Made by a program: the position numbers and the translations under genes. Below, piece by piece: positions 12,398 to 32,345 of a stretch of 64,000 bases of DNA (the first letter of the stretch is position 1; every line of letters begins with the position of its first letter). The notes beneath the pieces are model-generated. The model had not been told where the DNA came from. It did not search any database and worked only from the letters and a program-made list of their open reading frames with translations. The stretch covers positions 727,119 to 791,118 of the forward strand of contig NZ_FNCS01000001.1 in NCBI RefSeq assembly GCF_900100665.1. The letters are read 5' to 3'. The stretch comes from Pelagibacterium luteolum (GTDB taxonomy: Bacteria; Pseudomonadota; Alphaproteobacteria; Rhizobiales; Devosiaceae).

Positions 12398-12409
12398 CTA
12401 GCATACTAG
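12398..12409. promoter_or_regulatory. Regulon operator, site a (CTAGCATACTAG)
   Basis: First of six copies of the CTAGTATMCTAG motif. It lies 20 bases before the GTG of the small membrane protein gene and 5 bases before its GAGGAGGA ribosome-binding site, so it must overlap the transcription start region of the eboDEC unit. Confidence 0.7.
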
Positions 12410-12429
12410 GACTCGAGGAGGATCCCGGT

Positions 12430-12738
12430 GTGTTTGACCAAAGGCGTTGGCGCGTCCAGCATCCAAAAGATACGCGACAGCGCGAAGTGGTTTTGGCGTC
12501 CTGCGCAGCAAGCCTGGTCGCAACTCTTTTCGCTGTGATCGCCTTCGGACAGGGTCTGAGCGGCATCCATTGGCATGGTCTTGCCCTGTCATGTTGCGCC
12601 ACCGTGATCAATGTGGGGCTAGCTGGACTGCTTCTTCGAACTCGGCCCCGCATTAGAACCAAATCGCGCGATGCAACGAGCTTGCAGCCATTCCCGCACA
12701 GCCAAAAGATCAAGATCCATGTCAGCGATACAGTCTGA
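12430..12738 (+). CDS. Small two-helix membrane protein, first gene of the eboDEC unit
   Basis: A 102-residue protein with a basic N-terminus and two likely membrane segments (about residues 20-40 and 48-68) ending in a basic, RTRPRIRTK-containing tail. The GTG at 12430 has an excellent GAGGAGGA site 7 bases upstream, and operator site a directly precedes it. The end overlaps the eboD start by 20 bp, suggesting coupled translation. I do not recognise a family; it could be a membrane anchor or an accessory of the UbiA-type enzyme, but this is inference. The strong signals make it likelier than not to be real. Confidence 0.6.
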   Translation: MFDQRRWRVQHPKDTRQREVVLASCAASLVATLFAVIAFGQGLSGIHWHGLALSCCATVINVGLAGLLLRTRPRIRTKSRDATSLQPFPHSQKIKIHVSDTV

Positions 12739-13948
12739 GCTGGTGCTCGCAGCGTCCATAGAGCTGGCTGTCGACCGCTCTGAATTGCATGTGAGCCAGC
12801 AGAGCTTTTCGGTTTCCTATCAGTTTCCGGTCATCTTCTGCACGGGAGTCTTTTGCCCGAACAGTCGGGTCCTTGCCGAAGTCGTCCGCCAAATGGAACC
12901 CCTCGGACGACACCGGCTGCTGGTGTTCGTCGATGCCGGACTGCTTGAGGCGCGCCCGACCCTATTCGAAGAAATCGTGGATCACGTCGGGGCAAATGGC
13001 GCCGTCCTGGAACTCGCGGCGGCGCCGGTGGCCATCGCTGGAGGCGAGAGCATAAAGCAGGGGCTGGAGACGATCCTTGAGATGCAGCGGCTGATGGTCG
13101 AGCACAGGATCGACCGGCATTCCTATGTTGTCGCCATTGGCGGCGGCGCGGTGCTGGATGCTGTGGGGCTGGCCGCGGCGACGGCGCATCGCGGCATTCG
13201 CCACATCCGCATACCGACAACCGTTCTGTCGCAGAACGACTCCGGCGTGGGCGTCAAGAATGGGGTCAACCTCTTCGGTGCCAAGAATTATTTCGGCACG
13301 TTCGCGCCCCCCTCGGCGGTCATCAACGACTATGACTTTATCGAAAGCCTGCCGGTGCGCGAGAAGCGCGCGGGGATAGCGGAAGCCATCAAGGTCGCGC
13401 TGATCCGAGACCGGCGCTTTTTCGAATGGCTCGAGAGCTCGGTCGAGGCATTGCACAGCTTCGATCCGACCGCCATGCGCTACATGATCCGGCGCTGCGC
13501 TGAACTGCATATGCATCAGATCGGGCAAGGCGGAGACCCGTTCGAGCGCGGCACAGCGCGCCCACTCGATTTCGGACACTGGGCGGCCCACCGTCTGGAA
13601 ATGCTCAGCGAATTTTCGGTCCGGCACGGTGAGGCTGTAGCCATCGGCATTGCGCTCGACACCGAATATTCGGTGCTGGTCGGGCTGCTTGGCGAAGAGG
13701 ATGCCGCGAGGGTTCGGACTGTCCTCAAGGGCCTGGGCTTTTCGCTGTGGCACGATTTGATGGAGGCCAACGCGGCTGATGGCAGCCTCTTGATGCAGGG
13801 TTTGCGGGAATTTCAGGAGCATTTGGGCGGTGAGTTGACCATCACCCTGCTTGCGGCGCTCGGCACTGGGCTCGAGGTCCATGACATCAGCGAGCCTCTG
13901 ATGCTGCAGGCGATTGCGAACCTCAAGCAGCGAGCCGCCATGTCATGA
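12719..13948 (+). CDS. eboD: EboD: 3-dehydroquinate-synthase-like sugar phosphate cyclase family protein
   Basis: A 409-residue member of the AroB/sugar-phosphate-cyclase superfamily. The NAD-binding GGGAVLDAVGL (near residue 140) and TTVLSQNDSGVGVKNGVN (near residue 165) are recognisable, as are probable metal ligands Glu in AGIAEAIKVALI and His in HWAAHRLE and RHGEAVAIG. The protein is longer than AroB (about 360) with an N-terminal extension. With the neighbours eboE and eboC it fits EboD of the ebo cluster. The reaction is unknown; by superfamily it would close a sugar phosphate to a cyclitol. The ATG at 12719 has only a weak ribosome site and probably depends on the overlapping upstream gene. 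Confidence 0.85.
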   Translation: MSAIQSELVLAASIELAVDRSELHVSQQSFSVSYQFPVIFCTGVFCPNSRVLAEVVRQMEPLGRHRLLVFVDAGLLEARPTLFEEIVDHVGANGAVLELAAAPVAIAGGESIKQGLETILEMQRLMVEHRIDRHSYVVAIGGGAVLDAVGLAAATAHRGIRHIRIPTTVLSQNDSGVGVKNGVNLFGAKNYFGTFAPPSAVINDYDFIESLPVREKRAGIAEAIKVALIRDRRFFEWLESSVEALHSFDPTAMRYMIRRCAELHMHQIGQGGDPFERGTARPLDFGHWAAHRLEMLSEFSVRHGEAVAIGIALDTEYSVLVGLLGEEDAARVRTVLKGLGFSLWHDLMEANAADGSLLMQGLREFQEHLGGELTITLLAALGTGLEVHDISEPLMLQAIANLKQRAAMS

Positions 13949-15132
13949 GAATTGCCCAGAGTTCGGTCCATCTGACCTATTGCACCAATATTCATAAGGG
14001 CGAGAGCTGGGGCGAAACGTTCGACGCCATCCGCCGCAATGTGCCTCCGATCCAGGAGCGGGTGTCCAGCGATGCGCCGTTCGGTATCGGTCTGCGGCTT
14101 TCGGCTGCCGCGGCGACAGAACTCTCAAGCGGCTCGGCGCTCGATGAGTTCAAAACCTATCTCGCCGCGCAGAATGCTTATGTCTTTACAATCAACGGCT
14201 TTCCCTACGGGGATTTCCATGGCGTGCGCGTCAAGGAGAACGTCTACAGCCCCGACTGGTCCGACCCCGATCGGCTGAACTATACCAACACCCTGGCCGA
14301 TATCTTGTGCGCGCTTTTGCCCGACGGCATGGAGGGTAGTATCAGCACGGTGCCCGGGAGTTTTGCGCCCTGGGCGGAGGGCCGTATCGACGAGATCAGA
14401 GACACGATCATCGATCACGTCGCCCATCTTGTTGCGATCAAAGAAAAAAGCGGTAAGCGCATAACCCTCGCTCTCGAACCCGAGCCCTGCTGCATGCTCG
14501 AAACGATCGATGAGGCCGTCGCTTTTTTCAACGACGAGATCTATTCGGGCCGAGCCATTGCGCGGCTGTCGGAGCGGACGGCGCTGACATCGGATCAAAG
14601 CGCCAAGGCCCTGCGCGATCATGTCGGGCTTTGCTATGATGTGTGTCACGCAGCCATCGAGTTCGAAGACCCCGCTCAGAGTATCGCCAAGCTGCGCGAA
14701 AATGGCATTGCCATTTATAAGCTGCAGCTCAGTTCGGCCCTAAGGTTCGGCGCTGTGGACCATGATACGGCGAACCTTTTGGCGCCGTTCAATGAGCCGA
14801 CCTATCTCCATCAAGTTGTCGGTCGGCGTGGCGGCAGGCTCTCGAAATGGCTGGACCTCAAATCGGCGCTCGACGATCTCGACAACGAGATCGGCAGCGA
14901 ATGGCGGGTGCATTTTCACGTGCCGGTGTTTTTGGACACCATGGGCGCGTTCGGCACCACGCAGGCCTTCCTGCGCGACATTCTCGCCTTGCATCGTGAG
15001 CAGAAAATTTCCGATCACCTCGAGGTCGAAACATACACCTGGGACGTCCTGCCGGAGCAATATCGTGGTGAGCCCATGCCCGAGGCCATCTCGCGCGAGC
15101 TGAATTGGGTTCTGGAGCAGCTTGCGACATGA
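13945..15132 (+). CDS. eboE: EboE: xylose-isomerase-like TIM-barrel protein, metabolite traffic protein
   Basis: A 395-residue protein that starts in the ATGA overlap with the eboD stop. It matches the EboE type: an N-terminal YCTNIHKGESWGETF motif (near residue 12), NGFPYGDFHG (near residue 88), LALEPEPCCMLET (near residue 172) and CYDVCHAAIEFEDP (near residue 230), all features of a divalent-metal TIM barrel of the sugar isomerase/epimerase fold. The catalytic role is not known; cyanobacterial ebo genes are needed to move the scytonemin monomer to the periplasm. The gene overlaps eboC by 4 bp. Confidence 0.87.
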   Translation: MRIAQSSVHLTYCTNIHKGESWGETFDAIRRNVPPIQERVSSDAPFGIGLRLSAAAATELSSGSALDEFKTYLAAQNAYVFTINGFPYGDFHGVRVKENVYSPDWSDPDRLNYTNTLADILCALLPDGMEGSISTVPGSFAPWAEGRIDEIRDTIIDHVAHLVAIKEKSGKRITLALEPEPCCMLETIDEAVAFFNDEIYSGRAIARLSERTALTSDQSAKALRDHVGLCYDVCHAAIEFEDPAQSIAKLRENGIAIYKLQLSSALRFGAVDHDTANLLAPFNEPTYLHQVVGRRGGRLSKWLDLKSALDDLDNEIGSEWRVHFHVPVFLDTMGAFGTTQAFLRDILALHREQKISDHLEVETYTWDVLPEQYRGEPMPEAISRELNWVLEQLAT

Positions 15133-15992
15133 GGATCGCAACCGCGCTGAAGCTCGGGCGCGTTTCCAATCTGCCGACGGTCGTGACCAACGCCATGGCC
15201 GGCTTCATCCTCGCTAGCCAAGGGATGCTGAACGACGCTGTATTCCCGGTGATCGTCGGCGCGGCGCTCGCCTATGTGGCAGGCATGTTTTTAAACGACG
15301 CTTTTGACGCCGAATACGATGCGCGGCTTCAGCCCTATCGCCCGATACCGTCTGGATTGGCAGGACGCGGAGAAGTGTTTGGCTGGGGCTTTGGGCTCTT
15401 AGGCGCAAGTCTGGCGCTGTTTGTCGCTGCGGGTTTTTCTGGTGGGACCGGGTGGGCGGCGGGGACGGCGGGCCTGGTCCTTGCGCTGACAATTGTCGTT
15501 TACAATCGCCACCACAAGGAGAACGCCTTCGGGCCCGTCCTGATGGGCATGTGCCGTTTGCTCGTCTATCTTACGGCGGCACTTGCGGTGGTGCCGGCGC
15601 CGGGTTTGGCGCTTTATATTGGCGCGGGTCTGCTCATGGCGCATGTGATGGGACTGACGTTCATCGCCAAAGCCGAGCAGAGCGCAGGCGTTGGCAGATA
15701 TTGGCCCTTTCTCGCGCTTGCGGCAGCGCCGATCTGGGGCATCTATCTCGCGCTGGATAATCCTGTCGTCTGGCCGTTTGTGATCGCACTGATCGTGGCC
15801 GACGGGGTAGCCGTAAAGTTGGTTACCCTGCCCAAGCCTGACTTTGGCCGCGTCATTCCGCTGCTGATCGCGGCGATAACATTGCTCGACGGCATGCTGA
15901 TCGCACAGATGGGTCAGCCCGTTCTGGCGGTCGTCGCATGCCTTTGCTTTCCATTGACGCTTTTTCTGCAGCGCTGGGTGCGCGGCACGTAA
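15129..15992 (+). CDS. eboC: EboC: UbiA-family membrane prenyltransferase
   Basis: A 287-residue integral membrane protein with about eight to nine hydrophobic segments. The first UbiA aspartate motif is seen as NDAFDAEYDARLQPYRPIPSG near residue 55, which would bind the Mg-diphosphate of a prenyl donor. The second aspartate motif is less clear, as is known in divergent UbiA members. It starts in an ATGA overlap with eboE and closes the plus-strand unit. Together with idi nearby it suggests that the Ebo product is prenylated; donor and acceptor are unknown. Confidence 0.85.
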   Translation: MRIATALKLGRVSNLPTVVTNAMAGFILASQGMLNDAVFPVIVGAALAYVAGMFLNDAFDAEYDARLQPYRPIPSGLAGRGEVFGWGFGLLGASLALFVAAGFSGGTGWAAGTAGLVLALTIVVYNRHHKENAFGPVLMGMCRLLVYLTAALAVVPAPGLALYIGAGLLMAHVMGLTFIAKAEQSAGVGRYWPFLALAAAPIWGIYLALDNPVVWPFVIALIVADGVAVKLVTLPKPDFGRVIPLLIAAITLLDGMLIAQMGQPVLAVVACLCFPLTLFLQRWVRGT

Positions 15993-16004: not shown

Positions 16005-17387
16005 TCATCTAAAGACGTGGTCGAGCACCAGTGACTTGAACCGCGTCGCCAGAACCGGGCCATCGGGCAAGAGGTCGGGACGACTGGAAATGACCAGCGG
16101 GCCGTCTTCGTCTCGATCGGTGGGACGACCGTGCGAGCCCCTGACGATATCGGTTCGGTTGACCGATATGACGTCCAGCAATCCTCGAAAACCCAGCTTG
16201 CGCTTGCCGATCTTCCAGGCGATCTGCGCCTTGGCCATCTTCATGGCCGGATCAACGAACAGTTCGACTGGGTCGTAGCCGGGCTTGCGGTGGATATCGA
16301 CGGTCGCCGCATAATCGGGGGCTTTTTCGTCGTCGAGCCAATAGTAATAGCTGAACCAGCGATCAGCGCGGGAGATGGCCACAAGTTCGCCCGAACGCGG
16401 ATGATCGAGCCCTGCCTCGCGCTTGCCGTCTTCGGACAGAACGGTCTCGACGCCATCGAGACCGGCGATCAGTGCTGAGACCATCGGAATATCGTTAGGA
16501 TCGCGGACATAGATATGAGCGATCTGATGATCGGCGACGGCGAAGGCACGTGACTCGCCGTGATCGATCACCTCGCGCCCCATCTCCTCGCGCCATGCGA
16601 TAAGCCCGGCCTCGCGCAGCGCACGATTGATGTGGATGGCGTCGGTCACGGGCGTGATGCCATATTCGGAAACGATGATGACCTCGCGTCCTTCCCGCTC
16701 AGCACTCTCGATCAGCGGCGCTATGGCGGCATCGACATCGCGCAAGGACCTCTGGACGCGCGGGTGGGTAAGGTCGGGTCCGAAGCGTTGGATGTCGTAG
16801 TCGAGATGAGGGATATAGGCGAGGGTCAGTGTCGGTTTGCGGGTTTGGGTGACATGGCCCGTCGCGCCGACGATCCATTCGGTCGATTTCAGACTCGCCG
16901 TCGGACCCCAATAGTTGAACAGCGGGAAGGTGCCCAATTGCGCGTTCAACTCGTCACGCAGCGCGCCGGGCTTGGTATAGTGATCGGACACCTTGCGCCC
17001 GTCGGCGGGATACATGGGACGCGGCGTCGCGGTCCAATCTGCGGTCGAATACATATTGTACCACCAGAACATCTTGGCGCAGGTGAATTCGGGATCGCGC
17101 TTGCGACCGGCCTCCCAGATCATTTCGCCGCCCAAAAGGCGTTCGGGCTGTTTCCAGAGCGCGACTTCGCTGGTTTCGCGGAAGTACCAGCCATTGGCGA
17201 CCGCGCCGTGGCGAGAGGGCAAGCTGCCCGTCATTAGCGTAGCCTGGACGGCGCAGGTAACGGCCGGGGTTATCGTCGTAAGCGGACGCTGACCGCCCTT
17301 TTTGGCGAAGGCCGCGATGTGTGGCGTGTGTTCGCCCACCAGCGACGGGGTCAGCCCCACGACCAGCAAAACCAGTGTCTCTCTCAC
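16005..17387 (-). CDS. eboF: EboF: alkaline phosphatase-like phosphodiesterase/nucleotide pyrophosphatase
   Basis: A 460-residue protein of the type I phosphodiesterase/nucleotide pyrophosphatase (alkaline phosphatase) superfamily. It opens with VLLVVGLTPSLVGEHTP, has TITPAVTCAVQATLMTG with the likely nucleophile Thr near residue 38, and metal-site motifs such as HLDYDIQRFGP and IIVSEYGITPV. No signal peptide is seen. The GTG at 17387 is preceded by AGGGGAGAG and fixes the start; upstream in-frame codons would read through the operator. It is convergent to eboC (13-base gap) and divergent from eboA. In ebo clusters this is the sixth gene. Confidence 0.83.
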   Translation of the reverse strand: MRETLVLLVVGLTPSLVGEHTPHIAAFAKKGGQRPLTTITPAVTCAVQATLMTGSLPSRHGAVANGWYFRETSEVALWKQPERLLGGEMIWEAGRKRDPEFTCAKMFWWYNMYSTADWTATPRPMYPADGRKVSDHYTKPGALRDELNAQLGTFPLFNYWGPTASLKSTEWIVGATGHVTQTRKPTLTLAYIPHLDYDIQRFGPDLTHPRVQRSLRDVDAAIAPLIESAEREGREVIIVSEYGITPVTDAIHINRALREAGLIAWREEMGREVIDHGESRAFAVADHQIAHIYVRDPNDIPMVSALIAGLDGVETVLSEDGKREAGLDHPRSGELVAISRADRWFSYYYWLDDEKAPDYAATVDIHRKPGYDPVELFVDPAMKMAKAQIAWKIGKRKLGFRGLLDVISVNRTDIVRGSHGRPTDRDEDGPLVISSRPDLLPDGPVLATRFKSLVLDHVFR

Positions 17388-17419: not shown

Positions 17420-17431
17420 CTAGTATACAAA
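17420..17431. promoter_or_regulatory. Regulon operator, site b (CTAGTATACAAA)
   Basis: The left nine bases match the consensus exactly; the right end diverges. It sits between the divergent eboF (start 33 bases away) and eboA (start 21 bases away, with GAGGAGGA between), so it can control both. Confidence 0.65.
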
Positions 17432-17451
17432 TACGAGGAGGATCAATTGCC

Positions 17452-18321
17452 GTGCTGGACAGGGTGGACAATCGCTGTGATAGCGTGATGCTCGATTGGC
17501 TCGAAAGGCGGGTCGATGCCGATCGGTTGAACTGGCTGACGGCCGCGGCCAACCAGGTTGCCGACATGGATGACGCGCGCCTGGAACGTGCTCTTGCGCT
17601 TGCGGGCCGGAAGGTCGGGAAGGCCGATCTGGCCCCGACCGATACCGAGTTGTCGGATGCCGATGCTGTGCGTTTGGGCTGGAGCCCGCATCAGTGGTCC
17701 CTTGCCGATGTGGCGCGTGCTTACATCCTGACGGTGCTCGCAATGGAGCGCGAGGGGTTTGGTTCGAGATTTCGCCGCCTGTGCCAGACGGCCGATCTCG
17801 CCAGCCTGATCGGGCTTTATCGCGCCACGCCGGTTCTCCCCTATAACGCCGATCTCGACTGGCAATTGGGGGAAGGGTTGCGGACCTCGATCGGAGAAAT
17901 CTTCGAGGCGATTGCCCATCATAACCCTGTCCCGGCCGAAGCGTTTTCAGAACACCGCTGGAACCACATGGTGCTCAAGGCGCTGTTCGTCGACTCCAGC
18001 CTGCCGCCAATTTGGGGTTTGGACCAATGCCGGAACGCCGCACTGGCAGCGACGCTGGTCGATCATGTCCATGAGCGCCGTGCGGCCGGTCGGGCCGTCA
18101 ATCATCACGTGTGGCGCTGCATTGCGCCCTTCGCGACGGGCGAGGTTTTGAACGAAATCTTGCCGCTCTCCCAAAGCGCTGATCCGACCGCGCGACAGGT
18201 CGCCGCCTTGTTTCTGAGCGAAAGCCCCGACTCAAAGGCTGCAGCACGTTTGGACACATTGCCGGGTGAACGCGATGCGATCGCGGCCGGACACCTTGGC
18301 TGGTCGGCCATTCCTGGCTGA
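17452..18321 (+). CDS. eboA: EboA domain protein
   Basis: A 289-residue soluble, mostly helical protein with no known catalytic motif. FNHM-like EHRWNHMVLKALFV near residue 170 and the run ERRAAGRAVNHHVWRCIAPF near residue 210 are typical of EboA proteins. The GTG at 17452 is chosen because GAGGAGGA lies 9 bases before it; it follows operator site b. Downstream eboB begins 25 bases after the stop. The function of EboA is not known in any organism to my knowledge. Confidence 0.85.
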   Translation: MLDRVDNRCDSVMLDWLERRVDADRLNWLTAAANQVADMDDARLERALALAGRKVGKADLAPTDTELSDADAVRLGWSPHQWSLADVARAYILTVLAMEREGFGSRFRRLCQTADLASLIGLYRATPVLPYNADLDWQLGEGLRTSIGEIFEAIAHHNPVPAEAFSEHRWNHMVLKALFVDSSLPPIWGLDQCRNAALAATLVDHVHERRAAGRAVNHHVWRCIAPFATGEVLNEILPLSQSADPTARQVAALFLSESPDSKAAARLDTLPGERDAIAAGHLGWSAIPG

Positions 18322-18346
18322 CACCACCATTTTTCAGGAGACCGCA

Positions 18347-19264
18347 ATGTTCATCGATGCGCACGCCCACATGATTTCCCGCACGACCGATGATTATCAG
18401 GCCATGGCGGCGGCCGGTGTCGTTGCGTTGATCGAGCCGTCATTCTGGATCGGGCAGCCACGGACGTTCATTGGCAGCTATGTCGACTATCTCTCCCACA
18501 TCGTGGGGTTCGAGCGGTTCCGCGCGTCCCAGTTCGGCATCCGGCACTATTGCACCATTGGGCTCAATTCCAAGGAAGCCAATAACGAAGAACTGGCTGA
18601 GGGCGTGATGGAGATCCTGACCCAGTTCGCACTCAAGGACGGCGTCGTGGCGATCGGGGAAATCGGCTATGACGAGCAGACCCCGCTTGAAGACAAATAT
18701 TTCCGTGCCCAGCTTGAACTCGCCAAAGAGCTTGAGCTGCCGATCATGGTGCACACGCCGCACCGGGACAAAAAGAAGGGTACGCTCCGTTCGATGGAGG
18801 TTTGCCTCGAGCACGGTATCGATCCCAAGATGATCGTGATCGATCACAATAACGAAGAGACCGTCGACGACGTTCTTGATCGGGGGTTCTGGGCAGCGTT
18901 TTCGATCTATCCATCCACCAAGATGGGCAATGTGCGCATGGTGGAACTGCTCAAGCGCTATGGCGGTGACCGGATCATTCTCGACTCGGCGACCGATTGG
19001 GGGATTTCCGATCCGCTCGCCGTGCCCAAGACCGCCGAACTTGCGCGGCAGGAAGGCGTGTCCGAAGATGCGATCAGAAAAGCCACGTATCTGAACGCGT
19101 TGACCGCTTACGGCCAATCGGGACAGATGAGCGAAAACGACTGGACCGATGGCATTGATATCGATCAGACGGCGCTGCACGAAGGCAATTCGATCCTGCG
19201 GGGCGGGCGCGAACCCGTGGTCGCCGATGGGGCGACACGTAAGGGTTCCTTGATCATCGAATAG
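18347..19264 (+). CDS. eboB: EboB: TatD-family metal-dependent hydrolase
   Basis: A 305-residue TatD/amidohydrolase-fold protein. The family motif is the very start, FIDAHAHMISR, giving the HxH metal pair, followed by GEIGYDE near residue 104, IMVHTPHRDKKK near residue 133 and a final ILDSATDWG with the conserved aspartate near residue 210. The ATG at 18347 has CAGGAG seven bases upstream. It is co-directional with eboA and idi. TatD relatives are nucleases or lactonase-like hydrolases; the Ebo substrate is unknown. Confidence 0.87.
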   Translation: MFIDAHAHMISRTTDDYQAMAAAGVVALIEPSFWIGQPRTFIGSYVDYLSHIVGFERFRASQFGIRHYCTIGLNSKEANNEELAEGVMEILTQFALKDGVVAIGEIGYDEQTPLEDKYFRAQLELAKELELPIMVHTPHRDKKKGTLRSMEVCLEHGIDPKMIVIDHNNEETVDDVLDRGFWAAFSIYPSTKMGNVRMVELLKRYGGDRIILDSATDWGISDPLAVPKTAELARQEGVSEDAIRKATYLNALTAYGQSGQMSENDWTDGIDIDQTALHEGNSILRGGREPVVADGATRKGSLIIE

Positions 19265-19273: not shown

Positions 19274-19825
19274 ATGACCGCCAGCGAATATTTTGATGAT
19301 GCGCTTGAGGAATTGATCACCGGGGTCGACGATCAAGGCGAGCCCTACCCGATTGGCAAGCTCGACGCTCATCGCGCGAGCATCCGGCACAGGGCGGTGT
19401 CGATCTTCCTGTTCCGGGGCGATCAGCTGTTGCTGCAGCAACGAGCCGGTGTGAAGTATCATGCGCCTCTTCAATGGGCCAACTCGGCGTGCTCGCACCC
19501 GCGCTGGGGCGAAGACAGCAAGGCCTGCGCAAAACGCACTTTGCGGCGCGAACTCTCATTGGAAACGCCGCTGCGGTTAGCCGGCTCCATTGCCTACGAC
19601 GCCCCGATCGGCACGCTCTTTGAAAACGAGGTGGTCGACTGTTTTCGTGGCGATCTAGCTCCGGATATCGAACTCGACAATTTGGGATCACCCGAAGTGG
19701 CCAACCTGAAACTCGTTTCGGTTGCGGTCCTTAATGAAGCGATTAGAACGCGGTGCCAGGACTTTGCGCCGTGGTTCCGCATCTATGTCGACCGAGGGCT
19801 GGTTCATGAGATTCTGGCAGCATGA
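19274..19825 (+). CDS. idi: Isopentenyl-diphosphate delta-isomerase, type 1
   Basis: A 183-residue Nudix-fold enzyme that interconverts isopentenyl and dimethylallyl diphosphate. The catalytic cysteine is in WANSACSHPRWGE near residue 73 and the catalytic glutamate in LFENEVVDCF near residue 117; the Nudix helix is seen as KRTLRRELSLE. It starts 9 bases after the eboB stop, so it is part of the eboAB unit. Its presence supports a prenyl step in the Ebo route (EboC being a UbiA-type transferase). Confidence 0.92.
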   Translation: MTASEYFDDALEELITGVDDQGEPYPIGKLDAHRASIRHRAVSIFLFRGDQLLLQQRAGVKYHAPLQWANSACSHPRWGEDSKACAKRTLRRELSLETPLRLAGSIAYDAPIGTLFENEVVDCFRGDLAPDIELDNLGSPEVANLKLVSVAVLNEAIRTRCQDFAPWFRIYVDRGLVHEILAA

Positions 19826-19862: not shown

Positions 19863-19874
19863 CTAGTATCCTAG
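19863..19874. promoter_or_regulatory. Regulon operator, site c (CTAGTATCCTAG)
   Basis: A full match to the consensus, 12 bases before the GAGGAGGA site and 24 bases before the start of the exported TIM-barrel gene. Confidence 0.75.
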
Positions 19875-21808: not shown

Positions 21809-21820
21809 CTAGTATCCTAG
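21809..21820. promoter_or_regulatory. Regulon operator, site d (CTAGTATCCTAG)
   Basis: An exact copy of site c, 48 bases before the tctC start and on the upstream side of gntR, so it could also affect the gntR promoter about 200 bases away. Confidence 0.75.
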
Positions 21821-23492: not shown

Positions 23493-25052
23493 ATGTTTGA
23501 CGGACTCGTTTTACTGGGCCAGGGCATTGGTCACTTCCTGACGCCCGAAGGCATTTTCAACGTCATCTGGGCGACCCTTCTAGGTCTTGCGATCGGCATT
23601 TTGCCCGGCCTGACAGCGACGATGGGTGTCGCCCTTTTGGTGACGCTCACCTATGGAATGGAAACCTCCCAGGCCATTCTGACGCTGATGAGCGTCTATC
23701 TGGGATCGATCTTTGGCGGGAGCCGCACGGCCATCCTCCTCAATATCCCCGGCACGCCGGCAAGCGCCGCGACGTCTCTTGACGGCTATCCGCTGGCCCA
23801 GCAGGGGCGCGCGGGTCTCGCCATGGGGCTCGCCACCACGTCATCGACGCTTGGCACTTTGGTCGGCATATTCTTTCTGGCTCTGCTCGCGCCGCTTTTG
23901 ACCGAAGTTGCCCTGAATTTCGGGACATACGAGTTTTTCTGGCTCGCCGTATTCGGTGTTGTGATTTCGGGCCAGCTCAGTGGCTCCGATACGCCGATCA
24001 AGGGATACGTCACCGGCATTCTCGGCCTGCTTGCAGCGACAGTGGGTATGGAAAGCCTGCACGCCTACCAGCGCTTCACCTTCGGAATTCCCCAGCTTGG
24101 CGCCGGCATCGACATCATACCAGCCATGGTGGGTGCGTTCGGGCTAGCTGAAATTCTGTCTCAGATCAAGCGCCAGCCGACCCTGCTGACGAGAACGGTT
24201 ACAGACCGCGTAGTGCCGACATTGAAGGAAGTTTTTCAATATTGGAAAACGATCATCCGGTCGGGCGTCATCGGGACCTTTGTCGGCATTATCCCCGGCG
24301 TTGGCGAAGATGTGGGCGCATGGTCGTCCTATGCTGCAGCCAAGCGCTTTTCCAAAAAACCCCAGGAGTTTGGCAAGGGCAGCCAGGAAGGCTTGATTGC
24401 TGCTGAGACTGGCAACAACGCGGTCGTTTCCGGCGCGATGATCCCCACGCTCACGCTCGCATTGCCGGGCTCTGCAGCAGCCGCGGTCCTCATCGCAGCG
24501 ATGTATATCCACGGGGTCCGTCCTGGACCGATGCTGATGATCGAGAACGCGCCGTTCCTCTATCAGGTCGTGGGCATGCTGTTGCTCGCGACGCTGGCCA
24601 ATCTGGTGTTCGGTCTTACGCTGACCAAGCTGTTCATCAAGATCGTTTCGATCCCCCAGGATCGCCTTATGGCGGTGATTGCGGTGCTCTGCGTGGTGGG
24701 GTCGTTTGCGATCACCCAGCGCATGTTCGACGTCTATGTGATGCTTGGCTTTGGCGTAATTGGCTTTCTCCTGCGGGAGATGCGGTATCCGATGGCGCCC
24801 TTGGTGCTCGGGATCGTGCTTGGTGACCTGCTCGACAGCAATTTACGGCGCGGCCTGGGTCTGACCAACGGTGATTGGACGCCGTTCTTTACTCGCCCGA
24901 TCAGCTTGGTGCTGTTCCTCATCGTCGCCGTGACCATCGTGCTGAGCATACCGCCAATAAGCCGCGGGTTGGGCAGGCTTTTGGCCAATCTGACCCGGCG
25001 CAAGACAGTTACAGAACCATCCGTCCCCGACGGCCCTCGACCAAAGGAGTAG
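23493..25052 (+). CDS. tctA: Tripartite tricarboxylate transporter, large permease subunit
   Basis: A 519-residue permease with about eleven to twelve membrane segments. The TctA hallmark GILPGLTATMGVALLV near residue 30 and its inverted-repeat partner GIIPGVGEDVGAWSSYA near residue 265 are both present, as is GSIFGGSRTAILLNIPGTP. It overlaps the ribosome site of the following cytochrome gene (2 bases apart), so transport and oxidation genes share one message. Confidence 0.93.
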   Translation: MFDGLVLLGQGIGHFLTPEGIFNVIWATLLGLAIGILPGLTATMGVALLVTLTYGMETSQAILTLMSVYLGSIFGGSRTAILLNIPGTPASAATSLDGYPLAQQGRAGLAMGLATTSSTLGTLVGIFFLALLAPLLTEVALNFGTYEFFWLAVFGVVISGQLSGSDTPIKGYVTGILGLLAATVGMESLHAYQRFTFGIPQLGAGIDIIPAMVGAFGLAEILSQIKRQPTLLTRTVTDRVVPTLKEVFQYWKTIIRSGVIGTFVGIIPGVGEDVGAWSSYAAAKRFSKKPQEFGKGSQEGLIAAETGNNAVVSGAMIPTLTLALPGSAAAAVLIAAMYIHGVRPGPMLMIENAPFLYQVVGMLLLATLANLVFGLTLTKLFIKIVSIPQDRLMAVIAVLCVVGSFAITQRMFDVYVMLGFGVIGFLLREMRYPMAPLVLGIVLGDLLDSNLRRGLGLTNGDWTPFFTRPISLVLFLIVAVTIVLSIPPISRGLGRLLANLTRRKTVTEPSVPDGPRPKE

Positions 25053-25516: not shown

Positions 25517-25534
25517 CCGCCGCCAATCCGCATT

Positions 25535-25555
25535 GCGGCCCTCCCCCGTGGCCGC
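25535..25555 (+). other. Intercistronic hairpin between cytochrome and dehydrogenase genes
   Basis: A 6-bp GCGGCC/GGCCGC stem with a 9-base loop, 20 bases before the dehydrogenase start. It has no proper T-run and may set the ratio of the two proteins. Confidence 0.4.
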
Positions 25556-25577
25556 ACCTTTTGGAGGAGTGAGAAAA

Positions 25578-27911
25578 ATGAAATCGACACTAAGACGTTT
25601 CGGCTCGGTTGTGGCGCTGTCCACACTGACCTGCTCGCTGATGGCAGGCACCGCGCTGGCCCAGCAGAGCCAGGAATGGCCTCCGGAGTTTCAACCGCTG
25701 CCGGATTATTTCGGCTATATGGAACCCGAGGAATCGCTCGAGACCTTTACGCTCCCGCCCGGCTACCAGATCGATCTCGTCGCCTCCGAACCCCTGCTCG
25801 GTGATGGCATCGTCATGCAATGGGACTATCAGGGCCGGCTCTGGGTCGTCGAAACGACCTTCATGCTGAACCTTGAAGATCTCACCAGCGCCGAGCCCAG
25901 CAGCTCGCTCGTGATCCTCGAGGACACTAACGGCGACGGCGTCATGGATGAGCGCAAGGTGTTTGCCGAAAATCTCGTCCTGCCCCGTTCGCTGCTGATC
26001 CTCGAGCCCGGCAAGGTGATCCTGGGCGAGTCTCCCAATATCTGGTTGCTCGAAGATACCGACGGCGACGACGTCGCCGACGTAAAGGAGCCGATCACAG
26101 AAGGCAATTACGGCGCGCTGGGCGGCTCGATCGAGCACAATCCCAACGGGATGTTCTGGAACATCGATAACCGCATCTACAACGCCTATCTGGACGAAGT
26201 GTACCAGTGGAATGGCGAAGGCTTCGACGTCGACCGTGGCATCTCGATCGCGCAATGGGGCGTTACAGCCGACGATGAGGGCCGCATCCTGCGCCAGGGC
26301 AATTCGGCCGCGCCATCGATGAGCTATGTTGCCGACTATTATTATGGTCGCAGTTCGATCTTCACCCGCAACCGCGGCAATCACGAATGGATCGGCGGGC
26401 AATCGCGCGATGCAAATCGCGTTTGGCCCATCCGTCCCACGCCGGGCATCAACCGCGGCTATGTCGATGGCACGCTCGATGAGAATGGCGCCATGATGGA
26501 ATTGACATCCGCCGGCGGCGCCGCTGTCTATCGCGGCACGGCGCTCGGCGCTTCGGACTATGGCAACGTCTTTGTGCCAGAGCCCGCTGGCCAGCTCGTG
26601 ACGATGAGCACGCTTCAGGACTCAGGCGCCGGCATCTATTTGCGCAAGGCCTACGAGCAGGGCGACTTCCTGACCTCGACCGAAGAGCGCTTCCGCCCCG
26701 TCTTCACGCAGGTGGGACCGGATGGTGCGCTTTACGTGCTTGATCTCTATCACGGCATCGTCCAGGACGCCGTGTTCATGAGCAACTACCTCAAGGATTG
26801 GGTCGACGAGCACGATCTTGGCAATACTCATGGCGTCAACGGACGTATCTACCGCGTCAGCCACGAGGACGGTGAAGCCTCCGAGATCATGGATCTCACC
26901 CAGATGTCGCCAGAAGAACTGGTGGGCCTGCTCGAGCACGACAACGGTTGGTACCGCGACCACGCTCAGCGCTTGATCGTCGTACAGCAACAGGCCGACG
27001 CCGCGCCCGCGCTTGTCGATCTGTTCAATTCCGACGCGGATGATGTCGCACGTCTTCATGCGCTGTGGACGCTCGATGGCCTCGATGCGCTCGAAGCCGA
27101 GCACGTCGTTTCCGCCCTTGGTGACGCGAATGCGGAAATCCAGACTGCAGCGCTTAGGGTGTCGGAATCCTTCCTGAGCGATGGCAATCAGGAGGTGATC
27201 GACGCCTTCCTTAACCTGATCGGGAATACGCAAAACAAGTGGCAGGTCCAGTACCAGCTTGCCGCCTCGGCCGGCGAACTCGACGACGCCAATCGCCTCG
27301 ATGCGATAATCGACATCATCGACACCTATGGTGAAGACTATATCGCTCTGGACGCGGCGTTGAGCGGAGTGCCGGACGAGCAGGTATCCGAACTTCTCAC
27401 GATGCTGTTCGATATCGAAAATGGCAGCACGGGCATCGGCAATGCGATAACCACAATCGCCTCAGGTCTGACGCAAGTCGGTTCTGCCGACGAAGTCTCG
27501 GCAATGCTTGAAGCAGTTGGTGCCGAGGATCGTCCGGCCTGGCAGCGCGACGCAGCGCTTCTGGGCATGGAAGTCATACTTGCAGGCGTGTCCGATCCCG
27601 GTCTCGCACCGGCATTGCCCCGCAGCAATACGGGTTCGTGGACTGTCGGCGATTTGGGTGAACGCGCCTTTGCGGACTTCAACGCCGAGGTCAACGCCGC
27701 CGACGCGGCCGCGCAGGCCGAGCTTGCCGAACAGCGTGCTGCCAATGCCCCGCAGCGCCCTGAATCGGCAATGTCCGATGTTGACGGCGTACCCATGCTG
27801 GCACTTGAGGCGGCACCCGAAGGCTTCCTGGCTTTGCAGGACGATGAAGACCTTTCGGGTCGCATCGCCGGCATCACAGCCTTGATGACATGGCCCGAGG
27901 CCAACCAGTAA
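25578..27911 (+). CDS. Periplasmic beta-propeller dehydrogenase with HEAT-like C-terminus (PVC-type glucose/sorbosone dehydrogenase-like)
   Basis: A 777-residue exported protein. The signal peptide ends near ALAQQS (about residue 28). Residues about 55-430 resemble the soluble-glucose/sorbosone dehydrogenase-like propeller (GYQIDLVASEPLL, MQWDYQGRLWVVET, DTNGDGVMDERKVFA, VGPDGALYVLDLYHGIVQD), and residues about 445-640 look like HEAT repeats. Calcium-like DTNGDG and DTDGDD loops are visible. The usual C-terminal cytochrome domain is missing; a separate cytochrome gene precedes it. It likely oxidises a sugar hydroxyl in the periplasm. GGAGGAG precedes the ATG. The exact reaction and cofactor are unproven. 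Confidence 0.78.
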   Translation: MKSTLRRFGSVVALSTLTCSLMAGTALAQQSQEWPPEFQPLPDYFGYMEPEESLETFTLPPGYQIDLVASEPLLGDGIVMQWDYQGRLWVVETTFMLNLEDLTSAEPSSSLVILEDTNGDGVMDERKVFAENLVLPRSLLILEPGKVILGESPNIWLLEDTDGDDVADVKEPITEGNYGALGGSIEHNPNGMFWNIDNRIYNAYLDEVYQWNGEGFDVDRGISIAQWGVTADDEGRILRQGNSAAPSMSYVADYYYGRSSIFTRNRGNHEWIGGQSRDANRVWPIRPTPGINRGYVDGTLDENGAMMELTSAGGAAVYRGTALGASDYGNVFVPEPAGQLVTMSTLQDSGAGIYLRKAYEQGDFLTSTEERFRPVFTQVGPDGALYVLDLYHGIVQDAVFMSNYLKDWVDEHDLGNTHGVNGRIYRVSHEDGEASEIMDLTQMSPEELVGLLEHDNGWYRDHAQRLIVVQQQADAAPALVDLFNSDADDVARLHALWTLDGLDALEAEHVVSALGDANAEIQTAALRVSESFLSDGNQEVIDAFLNLIGNTQNKWQVQYQLAASAGELDDANRLDAIIDIIDTYGEDYIALDAALSGVPDEQVSELLTMLFDIENGSTGIGNAITTIASGLTQVGSADEVSAMLEAVGAEDRPAWQRDAALLGMEVILAGVSDPGLAPALPRSNTGSWTVGDLGERAFADFNAEVNAADAAAQAELAEQRAANAPQRPESAMSDVDGVPMLALEAAPEGFLALQDDEDLSGRIAGITALMTWPEANQ

Positions 27912-28057: not shown

Positions 28058-29275
28058 TCAGTTCGATGCCGCCAGGGCGTGCATCACGCCGCGTAATTCG
28101 GCCAGGCCCTTGAGGCGGCCAACGGCGGGGTAGCCCGGTCGCGCACCACGCGCCGCATCATCGAGCAGATCGTGTCCATGATCGGGGCGCATAGGGATTT
28201 GCCAGTCGGCCCGACCTTCGTCGCGCCGCCGCTCCTGTTCGCGCAGCAAGGCTCCGACGACGGCAACCATGTCGACATTGCCATGGAGATGGTCGTCCTC
28301 GAGAAATCCGGTCGGCGTACCCTTGTGATAGGTCGTGACGTTGCGCAGATGGCAGAAGGCGATTTTAGACCCCAGACGATCTACAAATCCGGGCAGGTCG
28401 GCGTCATCGCGCGACCCAAGCGATCCGGTACAGAACGTGATGCCGTTTGCGGGACTATCGACGGCCTCGACCATAAGTCGGTAATCGTTTTCCGTTGACG
28501 CGACCTTCGGCAGGCCCAGCAGCGAGAAGGGGGGATCGTCCGGATGGCAGCATAGCCGGAGGCCAAGCCGCTCAGCTGTGGGCACGACAGCTTCGAGAAA
28601 ATCGAAATGGTGGCGGCGAAGCTGTTCTGAACTGACCCCGCTGTAGCGATCGAGTTGGCGCCGCAGGGTTTCGAGGGTCCAGCTTTCGACCGCCCCTGCC
28701 AGGCCGGCGATGATGGCGTGACTGAGCTCGTCCTTTTGCGCCTCGCTCATCTTCTGCGCGTGCCGGGCGGCCTCGCGAACAATGTCTTCGCGATAGTTAC
28801 CCGCGGCGTCAGGCCGGGCCAGAATATGGATATCGAATGCGGCGAACTCGGCGAGGTCGAACACCATTGCAGTGCCACCATTGGGGAGGATTTGCCGGTG
28901 GTTGGTGCGCGTCCAATCTAGGATGGGCATGAAATTGTAGCACACCGTCTCAAGCCCTGCGGCGGCGAGATGCTCGAGGCTGGTTGTCCAGTTTGCGACG
29001 TGCTCGCGCCAGTCGCCGGTCTGTGTCTTGATCGCCTCCGAGACGGGAAGACTTTCAACGACATCCCAATAAAGCCCGGACTTGGCGCCATTGGCGGCAA
29101 AGCGGGTTTCGTGCAGGCGCGTTTCGATGTCTTCGGGCGTCCAGATCGCGCCGGGCGGGATGTGATAAAGCGCGGTGACGATACCTTCGGCGCCTGCCTG
29201 ATGCGCGTCACGCAGGCTCACCTTGTCGTCGGGGCCGAACCAGCGCCACGTCTGCCGCATCAGTCTTTTCGTCAC
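28058..29275 (-). CDS. uxuA: Mannonate dehydratase
   Basis: A 405-residue TIM-barrel enzyme that dehydrates D-mannonate to 2-keto-3-deoxygluconate in the glucuronate pathway. It starts MRQTWRWFGP, the usual UxuA N-terminus, and has VESLPVSEAIK near residue 75, CYNFMPILDWTRT near residue 115, LCCHPDDPPFSLLGLPK near residue 245 and ITFCTGSLGSR near residue 285, which carry the metal-binding Cys and His. The GTG at 29275 has GGAGGA six bases upstream. It is divergent from the first Gfo/Idh gene with operator e between. Confidence 0.95.
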   Translation of the reverse strand: MTKRLMRQTWRWFGPDDKVSLRDAHQAGAEGIVTALYHIPPGAIWTPEDIETRLHETRFAANGAKSGLYWDVVESLPVSEAIKTQTGDWREHVANWTTSLEHLAAAGLETVCYNFMPILDWTRTNHRQILPNGGTAMVFDLAEFAAFDIHILARPDAAGNYREDIVREAARHAQKMSEAQKDELSHAIIAGLAGAVESWTLETLRRQLDRYSGVSSEQLRRHHFDFLEAVVPTAERLGLRLCCHPDDPPFSLLGLPKVASTENDYRLMVEAVDSPANGITFCTGSLGSRDDADLPGFVDRLGSKIAFCHLRNVTTYHKGTPTGFLEDDHLHGNVDMVAVVGALLREQERRRDEGRADWQIPMRPDHGHDLLDDAARGARPGYPAVGRLKGLAELRGVMHALAASN

Positions 29276-29332: not shown

Positions 29333-29344
29333 GTAGGATACTAG
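29333..29344. promoter_or_regulatory. Regulon operator, site e (GTAGGATACTAG)
   Basis: On the minus strand this reads CTAGTATCCTAC, 11 of 12 to the site c/d form. It lies between the divergent uxuA (57 bases) and Gfo/Idh gene 1 (72 bases). Confidence 0.7.
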
Positions 29345-29416
29345 AATACATATTGCAGATGATGTGCCATGGCAAGCACGCTCGTCGGGCCGAAATTGCC
29401 GTATCGGGAGAGATTG

Positions 29417-30451
29417 ATGTTAGGTGTTGCGATCGTTGGCGTTGGCATGGTGGCAGGCATTCACGCCCGCGCCTTGCAGGATCTTGGGGACATCGCGCAG
29501 GTGCGCGCAGTCTATGACCGTGATCAGGAACGGCTCGAAGCTTTTTGTAAGAAATGGGACCTCCCGGGTGCGACATCGCTCGAGGAGATTTTGGCCAAAC
29601 CCGATATCGATGTGGTGATCGTGCTCACGCCCCCCAATGCCCGGCGCGATATCGTGGCAGCGGCGGCAGCGGCACAAAAGCACATCTTGCTCGAAAAGCC
29701 CTTGGCAACGGACAGCGCGGCTGGGCGCGAGCTTGTCGATCTTGCCGAGAGCGCTGGTGTCACGCTTGGCGTTATCTTCCAGCACCGCTATCGCGAGGCA
29801 TCCCAGTGGCTGAAGACGCTTGTGGAGTCGGGCAAGCTCGGCGCGCTCGGCATTGCCCAGGTGAACGTGCCCTGGTGGCGTCCGCAATCTTATTATGACG
29901 AGCCGGGTCGGGGGACATACGCGCGTGACGGCGGTGGCGTCCTGATCAATCAGGCTATCCACACCCTCGATCTCCTACAGGTCTATACCGGCCCGATCGC
30001 CGAAGTCATGGCCATGATGGGGACCTCTGCGCTGCACCAAATGGAGGCCGAGGATTTCGTTGGTGCCGGCATCAGGTTCGAGTCCGGCGCATTGGGTTCG
30101 ATTGTCGCGACGACGGCGGCCTATCCGGGCGGGGCGGAAACCATTGAGCTGGGCTTTGAGAATGCCGCCGTCCATCTCGGCTCGGGGACGGCGACCGTCT
30201 CCTATCATGACGGCACGGTTGACAGTTTCGGCGAACCCGCCGCTACCGGTGGTGGCGCCGACCCCATGGCCTTCCCTCATGACTGGCACGCATCCGCGCA
30301 ACGCGACTTTCTCGAGGCGGTGCGCGATGGGCGCCAGCCGGGCGCGACCGGCGCGGAGGCGTTGAACGTCCATCGGCTGATCGATGCTCTGGTGCTTTCG
30401 TCGAGGGAACGTCGGGCCGTAACGCTCAAGGAGGTGGCCGACAATGGGTAA
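29417..30451 (+). CDS. Gfo/Idh/MocA-family oxidoreductase 1
   Basis: A 344-residue NAD(P)-dependent sugar or cyclitol dehydrogenase. The Rossmann start is VAIVGVGMVAGIHARAL, the family EKP motif is LLEKPLA near residue 95, and the substrate-side GGGVLINQAIHTLDLL with the likely catalytic His is near residue 180. No signal peptide, so it is cytoplasmic. ATG at 29417 has GGGAGAG upstream. It overlaps the next Gfo/Idh gene by 8 bp. Such pairs often interconvert 3-keto and hydroxy sugars or inositols. Confidence 0.87.
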   Translation: MLGVAIVGVGMVAGIHARALQDLGDIAQVRAVYDRDQERLEAFCKKWDLPGATSLEEILAKPDIDVVIVLTPPNARRDIVAAAAAAQKHILLEKPLATDSAAGRELVDLAESAGVTLGVIFQHRYREASQWLKTLVESGKLGALGIAQVNVPWWRPQSYYDEPGRGTYARDGGGVLINQAIHTLDLLQVYTGPIAEVMAMMGTSALHQMEAEDFVGAGIRFESGALGSIVATTAAYPGGAETIELGFENAAVHLGSGTATVSYHDGTVDSFGEPAATGGGADPMAFPHDWHASAQRDFLEAVRDGRQPGATGAEALNVHRLIDALVLSSRERRAVTLKEVADNG

Positions 30452-31469
30452 CGCTGACGTCGTCATCGGCGTTGTGGGCATCGACCATCGCCACATCTAC
30501 GGCATGCTGTCGGGCATGCTCGATGCAGGAGCGCGCTGCAAGAAATGGTGGACCGAGGGCGAACCGCAAACCCTACAGGGCTTTGAAAAGCGCTTCGATA
30601 CCGTCCCCCGCGCGGCCGACCGCAGGGAACTTTTCGAGGATCCGGAAATCAATCTGATCCTGATCGCCGCGCCGCCGCACCAACGTGCCGATCTTGCCAT
30701 CGAGGCCATGGAGCATGGCAAGGATGTGATGCTCGACAAGCCGGGCTGCATCTCGTTTGCCGAACTCGAGCGCATCAAGGCGGTTGTCGAGCGCACCGGG
30801 CAGATATGGTCGGTGGATTTTTCCGAGCGGTTCGAAGTTCCCGCCTCCATCAAGGCGCTGGAACTCGTGCGTGGCGGCGAGATCGGCGAGGTGGTTCAAA
30901 CACTCGCCGTCGGTCCCCATCGGCTCAATCGGGCTACGCGGCCCGACTGGTTTTTCGATAGCGCGCTCTATGGCGGCATTCTCGGTGATATCGGTACTCA
31001 TCAGATCGATCAGTTTCTGACGTTTACCGGATCTCAGGATGCCGAAATCGTTGCCGCGAGCGTGGGCAATTTCGCAAACCCGAACGATGAGAATTTTCAG
31101 GATTTCGGCGAAATCCTGCTGCGCAGTGACATCGCGCGCGGCTATGCCCGTCTCGACTGGTACACGCCCGATGCGCTGCCCAACTGGGGGGATGGACGCC
31201 TGATGATCTTGGGTACCGAAGGCTATATCGAGCTGCGCAAATACGTCGATATCGAAGGCCGGCCCGGCACAGACCATCTGTTCATAGTCAATAACAAACG
31301 CTCCGACTACATCGACTGTTCGGGCATCCCCCTCACATATTTCAAGGATTTGGCGACCGACGTCCGCGAGCGCACCGAAACGGCCCTCACATTCTCCCAT
31401 GCCTATACGGTGACGCGCCTTGCCCTCGAGGCTCAGCAATTTGCCGAACGCAACGCCTCCGGCAAGTAA
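30444..31469 (+). CDS. Gfo/Idh/MocA-family oxidoreductase 2
   Basis: A 341-residue relative with VVIGVVGIDHRHIYG at the start, MLDKPGC (the EKP motif as DKP) near residue 96 and GGILGDIGTHQIDQF near residue 178. The first loop, GIDHRH, departs from the classical GxGxxG dinucleotide motif, so cofactor use may differ from that of gene 1. It is translationally coupled to gene 1 and ends before a bidirectional terminator. Confidence 0.85.
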   Translation: MGNADVVIGVVGIDHRHIYGMLSGMLDAGARCKKWWTEGEPQTLQGFEKRFDTVPRAADRRELFEDPEINLILIAAPPHQRADLAIEAMEHGKDVMLDKPGCISFAELERIKAVVERTGQIWSVDFSERFEVPASIKALELVRGGEIGEVVQTLAVGPHRLNRATRPDWFFDSALYGGILGDIGTHQIDQFLTFTGSQDAEIVAASVGNFANPNDENFQDFGEILLRSDIARGYARLDWYTPDALPNWGDGRLMILGTEGYIELRKYVDIEGRPGTDHLFIVNNKRSDYIDCSGIPLTYFKDLATDVRERTETALTFSHAYTVTRLALEAQQFAERNASGK

Positions 31470-31519: not shown

Positions 31520-31534
31520 CTCTTTAGAAGGGTC

Positions 31535-32290
31535 CTAGAGAGGACGGACCCAGATGTTGCGGAAGTCGACATCGGCATTGTGGTCCTGGAGCCGGATCGG
31601 GTCGCAGCCGTGCTCGGTATATGTCGGATATCCCACCCAGGCGGTCGTGCCCTGCACCTGCGCGTGGTTTTGAACCACGACGCCATTGTGCAGCACGGTC
31701 ATATATGCGGGTTTGCGCACTGAACCATTTTCGCCAAAGATCGGTGCTTCGAAAATGATGTCATAGGTCTGCCATTCGCCTGGAGCGCGCGAAGCATTCA
31801 CCAGCGGTGCGTGCTGCTTGTAGATCGACGCCGCCTGTCCGTTCACATATGTCGGGTTGTCGATGCTGTCGAGAATCTGGACCTCGTAGCGATCCTGGAT
31901 CTTGACCCCACTATTGCCGCGATCCTGCCCGTCATAGCCCTCGGTGTCTTCCGATACGCGCCACTCCATATGCAGCTGAATGTCACAAAACCCCTCGCTG
32001 GTTATGATGTCGCCTGTCCCGCGCGCGACCGAAAGGACGCCGTCCTCGACAGTCCATTCAGCAGGCCCGCCATTTGCCGACTCCCAGGCGTCCAGGTTTT
32101 CACCGTCAAAAAGCGCAATCGCATCGGACGGAATGGCGCCGTCAGGAGCATCCACTTCCGCAGGAATCGGCTCCCAGACCTCGGTCACCTGAGATTGCAC
32201 ATCTCGTGGAATATCGATTTCCTGACTGATCGCGCCCGTGCTGACCAAAACGGCGGCTACGCTCGCAGTAATCACATTCACATACCGCAT
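31535..32290 (-). CDS. Exported DUF1080 protein (3-keto-disaccharide hydrolase family)
   Basis: A 251-residue protein with a Sec signal (cleavage near AISQE, residue 23) and the DUF1080 lectin-like fold: ALFDGENLDAWESANG near residue 55, GNSGVKIQDRYEVQILDS near residue 120 and IRLQDHNADVDFRNIWVRPL at the C-terminus, all family hallmarks. Pfam lists this family as 3-keto-disaccharide hydrolase; members cleave 3-oxidised glycosides. The ATG at 32290 has AAGGAG upstream. It is under operator site f, and fits with the periplasmic dehydrogenase and TIM-barrel protein as a keto-glycoside pathway. Confidence 0.88.
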   Translation of the reverse strand: MRYVNVITASVAAVLVSTGAISQEIDIPRDVQSQVTEVWEPIPAEVDAPDGAIPSDAIALFDGENLDAWESANGGPAEWTVEDGVLSVARGTGDIITSEGFCDIQLHMEWRVSEDTEGYDGQDRGNSGVKIQDRYEVQILDSIDNPTYVNGQAASIYKQHAPLVNASRAPGEWQTYDIIFEAPIFGENGSVRKPAYMTVLHNGVVVQNHAQVQGTTAWVGYPTYTEHGCDPIRLQDHNADVDFRNIWVRPL

Positions 32291-32333
32291 CCGGTTTCTC
32301 CTTCTCCACAAACAAAGCGTCCGCACCGTAGCA

Positions 32334-32345
32334 TTAGTATACTAG
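32334..32345. promoter_or_regulatory. Regulon operator, site f (TTAGTATACTAG)
   Basis: Nearly perfect palindrome, 43 bases before the DUF1080 gene start. It is the right-most of the six sites; the neighbouring TRAP gene dctP points the same way but lies downstream of nothing controlled by it. Confidence 0.7.

Follow-up and report, generated by a model that had tools for sequence, protein, structure and literature searches.

Six operator-like sites mark a probable local regulon joining a uronide-type sugar module to the ebo cluster in Pelagibacterium luteolum

Within a stretch of 64,000 nucleotides from Pelagibacterium luteolum (NCBI RefSeq assembly GCF_900100665.1, contig NZ_FNCS01000001.1, positions 727,119 to 791,118 of the forward strand; hereafter the window), six copies of a 12-bp site are spread over 20 kb, before the genes of a putative uronide module and before those of the ebo (EDB) cluster. 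The best explanation of the whole, and in our view a probable one, is that the six sites are operators of a single local regulon bound by the GntR/FCD protein encoded among them (GntR1) and controlling both the uronide module and ebo. The clustering of the sites, the conservation of all six in a second genome of the genus and the retention of GntR1 with the block (80% identity) support the claim, made in an earlier sequence-only reading of this DNA, that the sites define one regulon; the local regulon is real and conserved, and its regulator is most likely the GntR/FCD protein in its middle. Regulation of this kind is ordinary, but its content, ebo combined with a sugar-acid pathway, is unusual. 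The ebo genes, noticed in plastids and across many bacterial phyla, are widespread yet poorly understood, and the regulon offers a new clue to their function.

Sequence, clustering and conservation of the sites

The six sites, their letters given in one common orientation, are:

12398..12409, minus strand: operator 1, CTAGTATGCTAG, upstream of the unit small membrane open reading frame (ORF)-eboD-eboE-eboC
17420..17431, plus strand: operator 2, CTAGTATACAAA, between divergent eboF (minus) and eboA-eboB-Nudix (plus); right half degenerate
19863..19874, plus strand: operator 3, CTAGTATCCTAG, upstream of the sugar-isomerase-like gene
21809..21820, plus strand: operator 4, CTAGTATCCTAG, upstream of tctC-tctB-tctA-DUF7133 (plus) and 206 bases from the start of GntR1 (minus)
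29333..29344, minus strand: operator 5, CTAGTATCCTAC, between divergent uxuA (minus) and Gfo1-Gfo2 (plus)
32334..32345, minus strand: operator 6, CTAGTATACTAA, upstream of the 3-keto-disaccharide hydrolase gene (minus)

All six were recovered exactly where the sequence-only reading had placed them. The motif it had given, CTAGTATMCTAG, occurs without mismatch only at 19863 and 21809; the other four sites deviate from it, and that at 17420 lacks the right half. Likewise, its description of a 12-bp near-palindrome with a GTATAC-type centre holds for the GT-N2-AC form, but the site is asymmetric, CTAGTATNC being invariant in 12/12 sites of both genomes while the right half varies. GTATAC itself is present, by eye, in 4/12 sites; in the others C or G stands in place of the first A of AC, and the C of AC is invariant. 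In form the sites resemble FadR-subfamily operators (GT and AC, 2-3 bases apart) with a weakened right half. Measured to the likeliest start codons as read from the sequence, they lie about 14-72 bases before their units, close to the 20-75 bases proposed earlier, except for the regulator gene at 206 bases; that divergent pairs share a site was borne out for eboF/eboA (17420) and uxuA/Gfo1 (29333). A second GTAT-like half-box lies 8 bases from the site centre.

The complete genome (4,296,818 bases) was searched with the pattern CTAGTATACTAG, allowing up to 2 mismatches. No exact match was found, and 14 distinct places were recovered, four with one mismatch and ten with two. All four one-mismatch places and 2/10 two-mismatch places fall inside the 20 kb region, so that the motif clusters here as expected of a local regulon (4/4 and 6/14); the other eight two-mismatch places lie elsewhere. 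In the window the six sites amount to 12 rows on both strands at this threshold, as against a mean of 1.00 and a maximum of 6 in 100 dinucleotide shuffles. From the outside rate 0.037 sites are expected per 20 kb (Poisson P ~4e-12), in line with the earlier judgement that a chance origin is very unlikely, though this P is an overstatement because the motif was derived from these very sites; the independent test is a same-genus genome of 3.9 Mb (G001). A reversed-pattern control, which gave 168 places, contains GATC and is hence an unfair yardstick. Of the eight outside places, one is flanked by a GntR paralog and a second uxuA and one coincides with the start of a TctA-like gene; the others fall in or next to ORFs where no operon start is evident. 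The exact 12-mer CTAGTATMCTAG was present in 10/397 genomes of the order, twice here and as a single copy in the nine others. De novo counting of near-palindromes in the window, G001 and seven ebo loci was dominated by GC-rich words and did not recover the known sites.

In G001 the same 17 genes occur in unchanged order and orientation, and all six sites are kept upstream of the orthologous genes at syntenic positions, as phylogenetic footprinting of a true regulon should find. The whole of that genome has exactly six places within two mismatches, every one a syntenic counterpart, and no site elsewhere (6/6). Site identity is 75-100%, as against 17-62% (ungapped) for the 60 bases on either side. 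Furthermore, a weight matrix built from the six sites of one genome ranks the six of the other first (in the 64 kb window and in a 50 kb stretch of G001), with a thin margin for the site at 17420 (12.4 vs 11.3 bits). DNA synteny between the genomes ends at 32224.

The candidate regulator

20907..21602, minus strand: GntR1, GntR/FCD (FadR-subfamily) regulator, the proposed repressor (PF00392 56 bits, PF07729 67 bits, both over cut-off)

The combination of a GntR winged helix with an FCD domain assigns GntR1 to the FadR subfamily, and among the annotated proteins it is, as had been noted, the sole regulator between the first and the last site. Its only close ortholog among 61 relatives is that of G001 (80% identity; the next match has E 3.4e-37 and 37%), and at E<=1e-45 an ortholog, co-occurring with the block, was found in 2/136 genomes of the family. 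Searches for orthologs in named genomes matched 15 stretches by pattern, none of them a relative. By sequence, the nearest regulator of solved structure is 7u5q (6e-29). Elsewhere in the genome, a GntR paralog (35% to GntR1) stands divergent from another uxuA-uxaC-UxuB-like operon, and the spacer between the two holds a two-mismatch site (C14:145001-165000, about 10780-15820), for which reason GntR1 likely belongs to a uronate-type regulator lineage. No UxuR model was among the NCBIfam matches, and the UxuR likeness rests on this paralog and on operator spacing.

According to PMC4494728, GT-N2-AC is one of two operator forms of the FadR subfamily and that given for UxuR, additional half-boxes have been reported 7-12 bases from the centre, and members of the subfamily usually repress and are released by an acid ligand. 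Since the sites fit the GT-N2-AC form, a local repressor likely acts at them, and we infer that GntR1 is the protein that binds all six. Most likely it would repress from a position overlapping the promoters or directly downstream of them, releasing upon binding of a pathway acid, either a hexuronate or a hexuronate catabolite. The best promoter-like match of the region, TTGACA-16-CATACT at 12380-12407, overlaps site 1, with TTGACA kept in G001, and another such match overlaps site 5.

Taken together, the arrangement resembles that of FadR-subfamily sugar-acid regulons such as that of UxuR, in which an FCD regulator stands beside its targets, the operator is GT-N2-AC, divergent units have one site in common and the targets are of the uxuA/uxaC/uxuB type. 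It differs from them in its operator flanks (CTA-TAG) and asymmetric strong half, in having no close autoregulatory site and in extending to an ebo cluster.

Genes under the sites and a proposed pathway

The sites precede eight units (orf-eboD-E-C; eboF; eboA-eboB-Nudix; isomerase-like; tctC-B-A-DUF7133; uxuA; Gfo1-Gfo2; DUF1080 hydrolase), whose genes are:

12430..12738, plus strand: small ORF of 102 amino acids with a hydrophobic middle, heading the eboD-E-C unit; nothing over cut-off in Pfam
12719..13948, plus strand: eboD, AroB-like sugar phosphate cyclase
13945..15132, plus strand: eboE, TIM barrel (NF035939 468 bits, cut-off 250)
15105..15992, plus strand: eboC, UbiA-type prenyltransferase (PF01040 43 bits, over cut-off; NF035940 78 bits, under its cut-off of 250)
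16005..17387, minus strand: eboF, type I phosphodiesterase / nucleotide pyrophosphatase, likely start 17387
17446..18321, plus strand: eboA (domain model NF035938 133 bits, cut-off 50; NF035937 187 bits, under its cut-off of 320)
18266..19264, plus strand: eboB, TatD-like hydrolase
19274..19825, plus strand: Nudix protein
19899..20834, plus strand: xylose-isomerase-like TIM barrel with an apparent signal peptide (by eye); PDB 8tcs and 8tcd, about 4.5e-24
21869..22903, plus strand: TctC-type periplasmic binding protein
22967..23485, plus strand: TctB
23493..25052, plus strand: TctA permease
25533..27911, plus strand: DUF7133 / PVC-type 'heme-binding' protein with a HEAT-like region and an apparent signal peptide, no CxxCH
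28058..29275, minus strand: UxuA, mannonate dehydratase
29369..30451, plus strand: Gfo/Idh/MocA dehydrogenase 1 (Gfo1)
30444..31469, plus strand: Gfo/Idh/MocA dehydrogenase 2 (Gfo2), PDB match 3u3x
31535..32290, minus strand: 3-keto-disaccharide hydrolase (DUF1080) with an apparent signal peptide, likely start 32290; PDB 4qhz 7.6e-73, also 8rr2

By family assignment eboA-F are all present, as in other ebo (EDB) clusters, with EboE over its curated cut-off, EboA identified by the domain model and EboC by Pfam UbiA alone. G001 has a similar small ORF at the same place, between the site and eboD, and extra genes beside uxuA, namely UxaC (8.7e-72) and a mannitol-dehydrogenase-family (UxuB-like) gene. 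Gfo/Idh/MocA dehydrogenases, a DUF1080 hydrolase and an isomerase-like protein are encoded together, as expected of 3-keto glycoside pathways such as Caulobacter LacABC-DUF1080; here no LacABC-type dehydrogenase is among the annotated genes, and the DUF7133 protein, UxuA and ebo are added. Gfo1 matches 8tdi, a chain named glucuronide-3-dehydrogenase, at 4e-23. Together with 8tcd and 8tda, 8tdi reportedly comes from the work of Nasseri 2024, another example of the 3-keto (oxidative) glycoside pathway.

These genes read as a set that takes up a uronic acid glycoside and opens it by oxidation. The glycoside would be imported by TctCBA and opened by the oxidative 3-keto route through the Gfo/Idh/MocA dehydrogenases, the 3-keto-disaccharide hydrolase and the isomerase-like TIM barrel, whereupon the uronate would pass through mannonate by way of UxuA and, in G001, with the UxaC and UxuB-like genes. 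The whole ebo cluster would be co-induced, most likely since the ebo product serves a periplasmic oxidation or transport step. DUF1080 has been tied to periplasmic hydrolysis of 3-keto-lactose in PMC9007349.

ebo loci elsewhere and alternative readings

EboE relatives numbered 380 in named genomes, and the loci of the best 80 of the 380 were surveyed; their DNA is often short, both flanks of about 10 kb being available in 38/80. The commonest neighbour that is not an ebo gene is GSDH, the pyrroloquinoline quinone (PQQ)-type sugar dehydrogenase family, at 37/80 loci, and a cytochrome c family is present at 33/80 (tblastn, E 1e-5); this count supersedes the 33 (G650 included) and 32 GSDH loci given by a crude gene caller. 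Among the loci with full flanks, 23/38 have GSDH and 13 have neither GSDH nor SGL. In the order, EboE was found in 14/297 whole genomes; in 11/13 of the ebo genomes other than ours (9/10 genera) eboE has a GSDH on its own contig at a distance of at most 15 kb (up to 6.1 kb in ten of them, 14.3 kb in one), as against 0.33/13 expected from random placement, a figure that treats the genomes as independent, which they are not. The two without a near GSDH are G135 and G212, whose eboE stands on contig C118 and whose GSDH genes stand on other contigs. In 12/13 ebo genomes, vs 0/22 same-family control genomes lacking EboE, there is a GSDH with a score of 60-150 bits, a band picked after the scores were seen. 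Modelling of the ebo-linked GSDH (predicted local distance difference test score, pLDDT, 86; 14 sequences) gave Hedgehog-interacting protein as the best match, followed by PQQ sugar dehydrogenases from E 9.3e-21, and on these matches the protein is predicted to have a six-bladed propeller fold, with PQQ use likely. The recurrence of GSDH and cytochrome c beside ebo elsewhere suggests that ebo serves periplasmic oxidations.

Near ebo in this regulon the DUF7133 protein, which fits TIGR02604 (178 bits, cut-off 122) and is encoded 10.4 kb from eboE, may take the place of GSDH and cytochrome c. A distant homolog in G650 has a cytochrome c domain, but the DUF7133 protein itself lacks CxxCH, and G650 is a genome without EboE. 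A kinship of the DUF7133 protein with GSDH itself was considered and rejected, there being no profile link (E 0.074) and no PDB sequence match; BLAST gave a weak match (E 0.001) to an SGL-like neighbour protein, itself under the Pfam cut-off for SGL, and a single-sequence model was unusable (pLDDT 32). Matches are rare, occurring at E 1e-60 in 2/385 genomes of the class and, for DUF7133 at E 1e-30, in 1/150 of the phylum.

Conceivably GntR1 controls the sites and ebo is included for a reason other than sugar, for example to export or modify some compound that the cell makes when the same condition prevails. Relatives of the isomerase-like protein, the DUF7133 protein, UxuA, the hydrolase and GntR1 (E 1e-8) were found in 0/80 ebo loci within the available DNA, for which reason the pairing of ebo with the sugar module appears private to this lineage, and the window operator at <=1 mismatch was likewise absent from the 80 loci (1.33 Mb). 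In keeping with such a role, all Nostoc ebo mutants studied trap the scytonemin monomer in the cytoplasm, as stated by Klicki 2018 (PMC6282210). Nevertheless, 2/6 sites serve ebo units alone and are kept in G001, and ebo elsewhere adjoins genes of the sugar-dehydrogenase type, so that we regard this alternative as somewhat unlikely.

If ebo does act with the sugar module, a speculative proposal that we hold only tentatively is that it produces or supplies some component for periplasmic propeller-type dehydrogenases, for instance a prenylated cofactor of cyclitol type or a lipid-side electron carrier, the regulon co-inducing ebo with the glycoside so opened. Such a role would, if true, unite scytonemin dimerisation in Nostoc, the EDB-dependent oxidation of indole by Pseudomonas and the oxidation of sugars in Proteobacteria. 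Klicki 2018 weighs a cofactor or lipid carrier, and Yurchenko 2016 (PMC5133447) also allows a cofactor role, these papers offering just 'a cofactor' or 'translocation to the periplasm'; sorbosone dehydrogenase figures in PMC6282210 as a periplasmic marker only, and the dependence of Pseudomonas indole products on EDB is given in a review (PMC9655573). A literature search of partial coverage revealed no paper connecting ebo with GSDH or with a GntR regulon, and a search with the operator letters, of similarly partial coverage, gave by title no bacterial regulator paper on the site among the matches listed. With the operators tying all ebo units to a sugar-acid pathway, and with GSDH and cytochrome c recurring beside ebo elsewhere, two questions become testable: what substrate acts as the inducer of ebo, and for which oxidation ebo is required.

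Several observations weigh against a GntR1-controlled uronide-ebo regulon. Its gene set was found in two genomes only, and conservation hence rests on one comparison. The start of GntR1 has no close site, the nearest being 206 bases away, which leaves autoregulation uncertain. Promoter-like matches in the region (4, of which 2 overlap sites) do not exceed chance (shuffle mean 6.6), so that the evidence from promoter overlap is weak. The substrate is a guess from family names, and the better PDB matches of Gfo1 are to generic dehydrogenases (3q2i, 2.7e-40, and 3q2k). Against the wider reading that ebo serves periplasmic oxidations, this locus, probably placed under common control with a uronide module, adjoins neither GSDH nor cytochrome c, unlike many ebo loci: no GSDH was found near ebo in this genome or in G001, the GSDH genes of both being far from it (the two of this genome on contig C37), and the same tblastn search found no cytochrome c in the regulon.

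It is quite improbable that a different regulator, such as the second FCD protein just outside the region (GntR2, 35491-36261) or a distant paralog, binds the sites with GntR1 as a bystander. With E<=0.001 as the threshold, 20 matches to GntR1 occur in this genome, and 2/8 outside sites, those beside the GntR paralog/uxuA2 pair and before the TctA-like gene, would suit such a protein. However, GntR1 is inside the conserved block in both genomes, whereas GntR2 and the adjoining TRAP genes lie beyond synteny with G001, for which reason GntR2 was rejected as the binder, and G001 has no site elsewhere. A chance or promoter-element repeat, with no operator function, is strongly disfavoured, for although the core TAGTAT/GTATAC resembles a -10 element and the motif was picked after the sites were seen, 6/6 genome-wide places in G001 are the syntenic sites, which are far better kept than their flanks.

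Some further loci with FCD regulators were observed. At 32473-37368 of the window a TRAP transporter (DctP, DctM, DctQ; minus strand) stands beside GntR2 and a DHDPS-family gene; together they probably form a sugar-acid locus of their own. The two-mismatch site at the TctA-like gene start (C14:804434-804445) is ~14 kb from an FCD regulator (C14:818852-819451, 40% to GntR1). Among the surveyed ebo loci, an FCD regulator adjoins ebo and GSDH in 3 by tblastn and in 5 by clustering. Three ebo loci with their own FCD gene carry a TGTTTT-N2-AAAACA-like palindrome before GSDH (L075 at 6073, L076 at 6185, L080 at 2666), and the same type of site, with 2 mismatches, lies near the eboF start in L075 and L076. 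The palindrome is possibly the operator of the FCD regulator in these three loci, a lead only, because L076 has four further matches.

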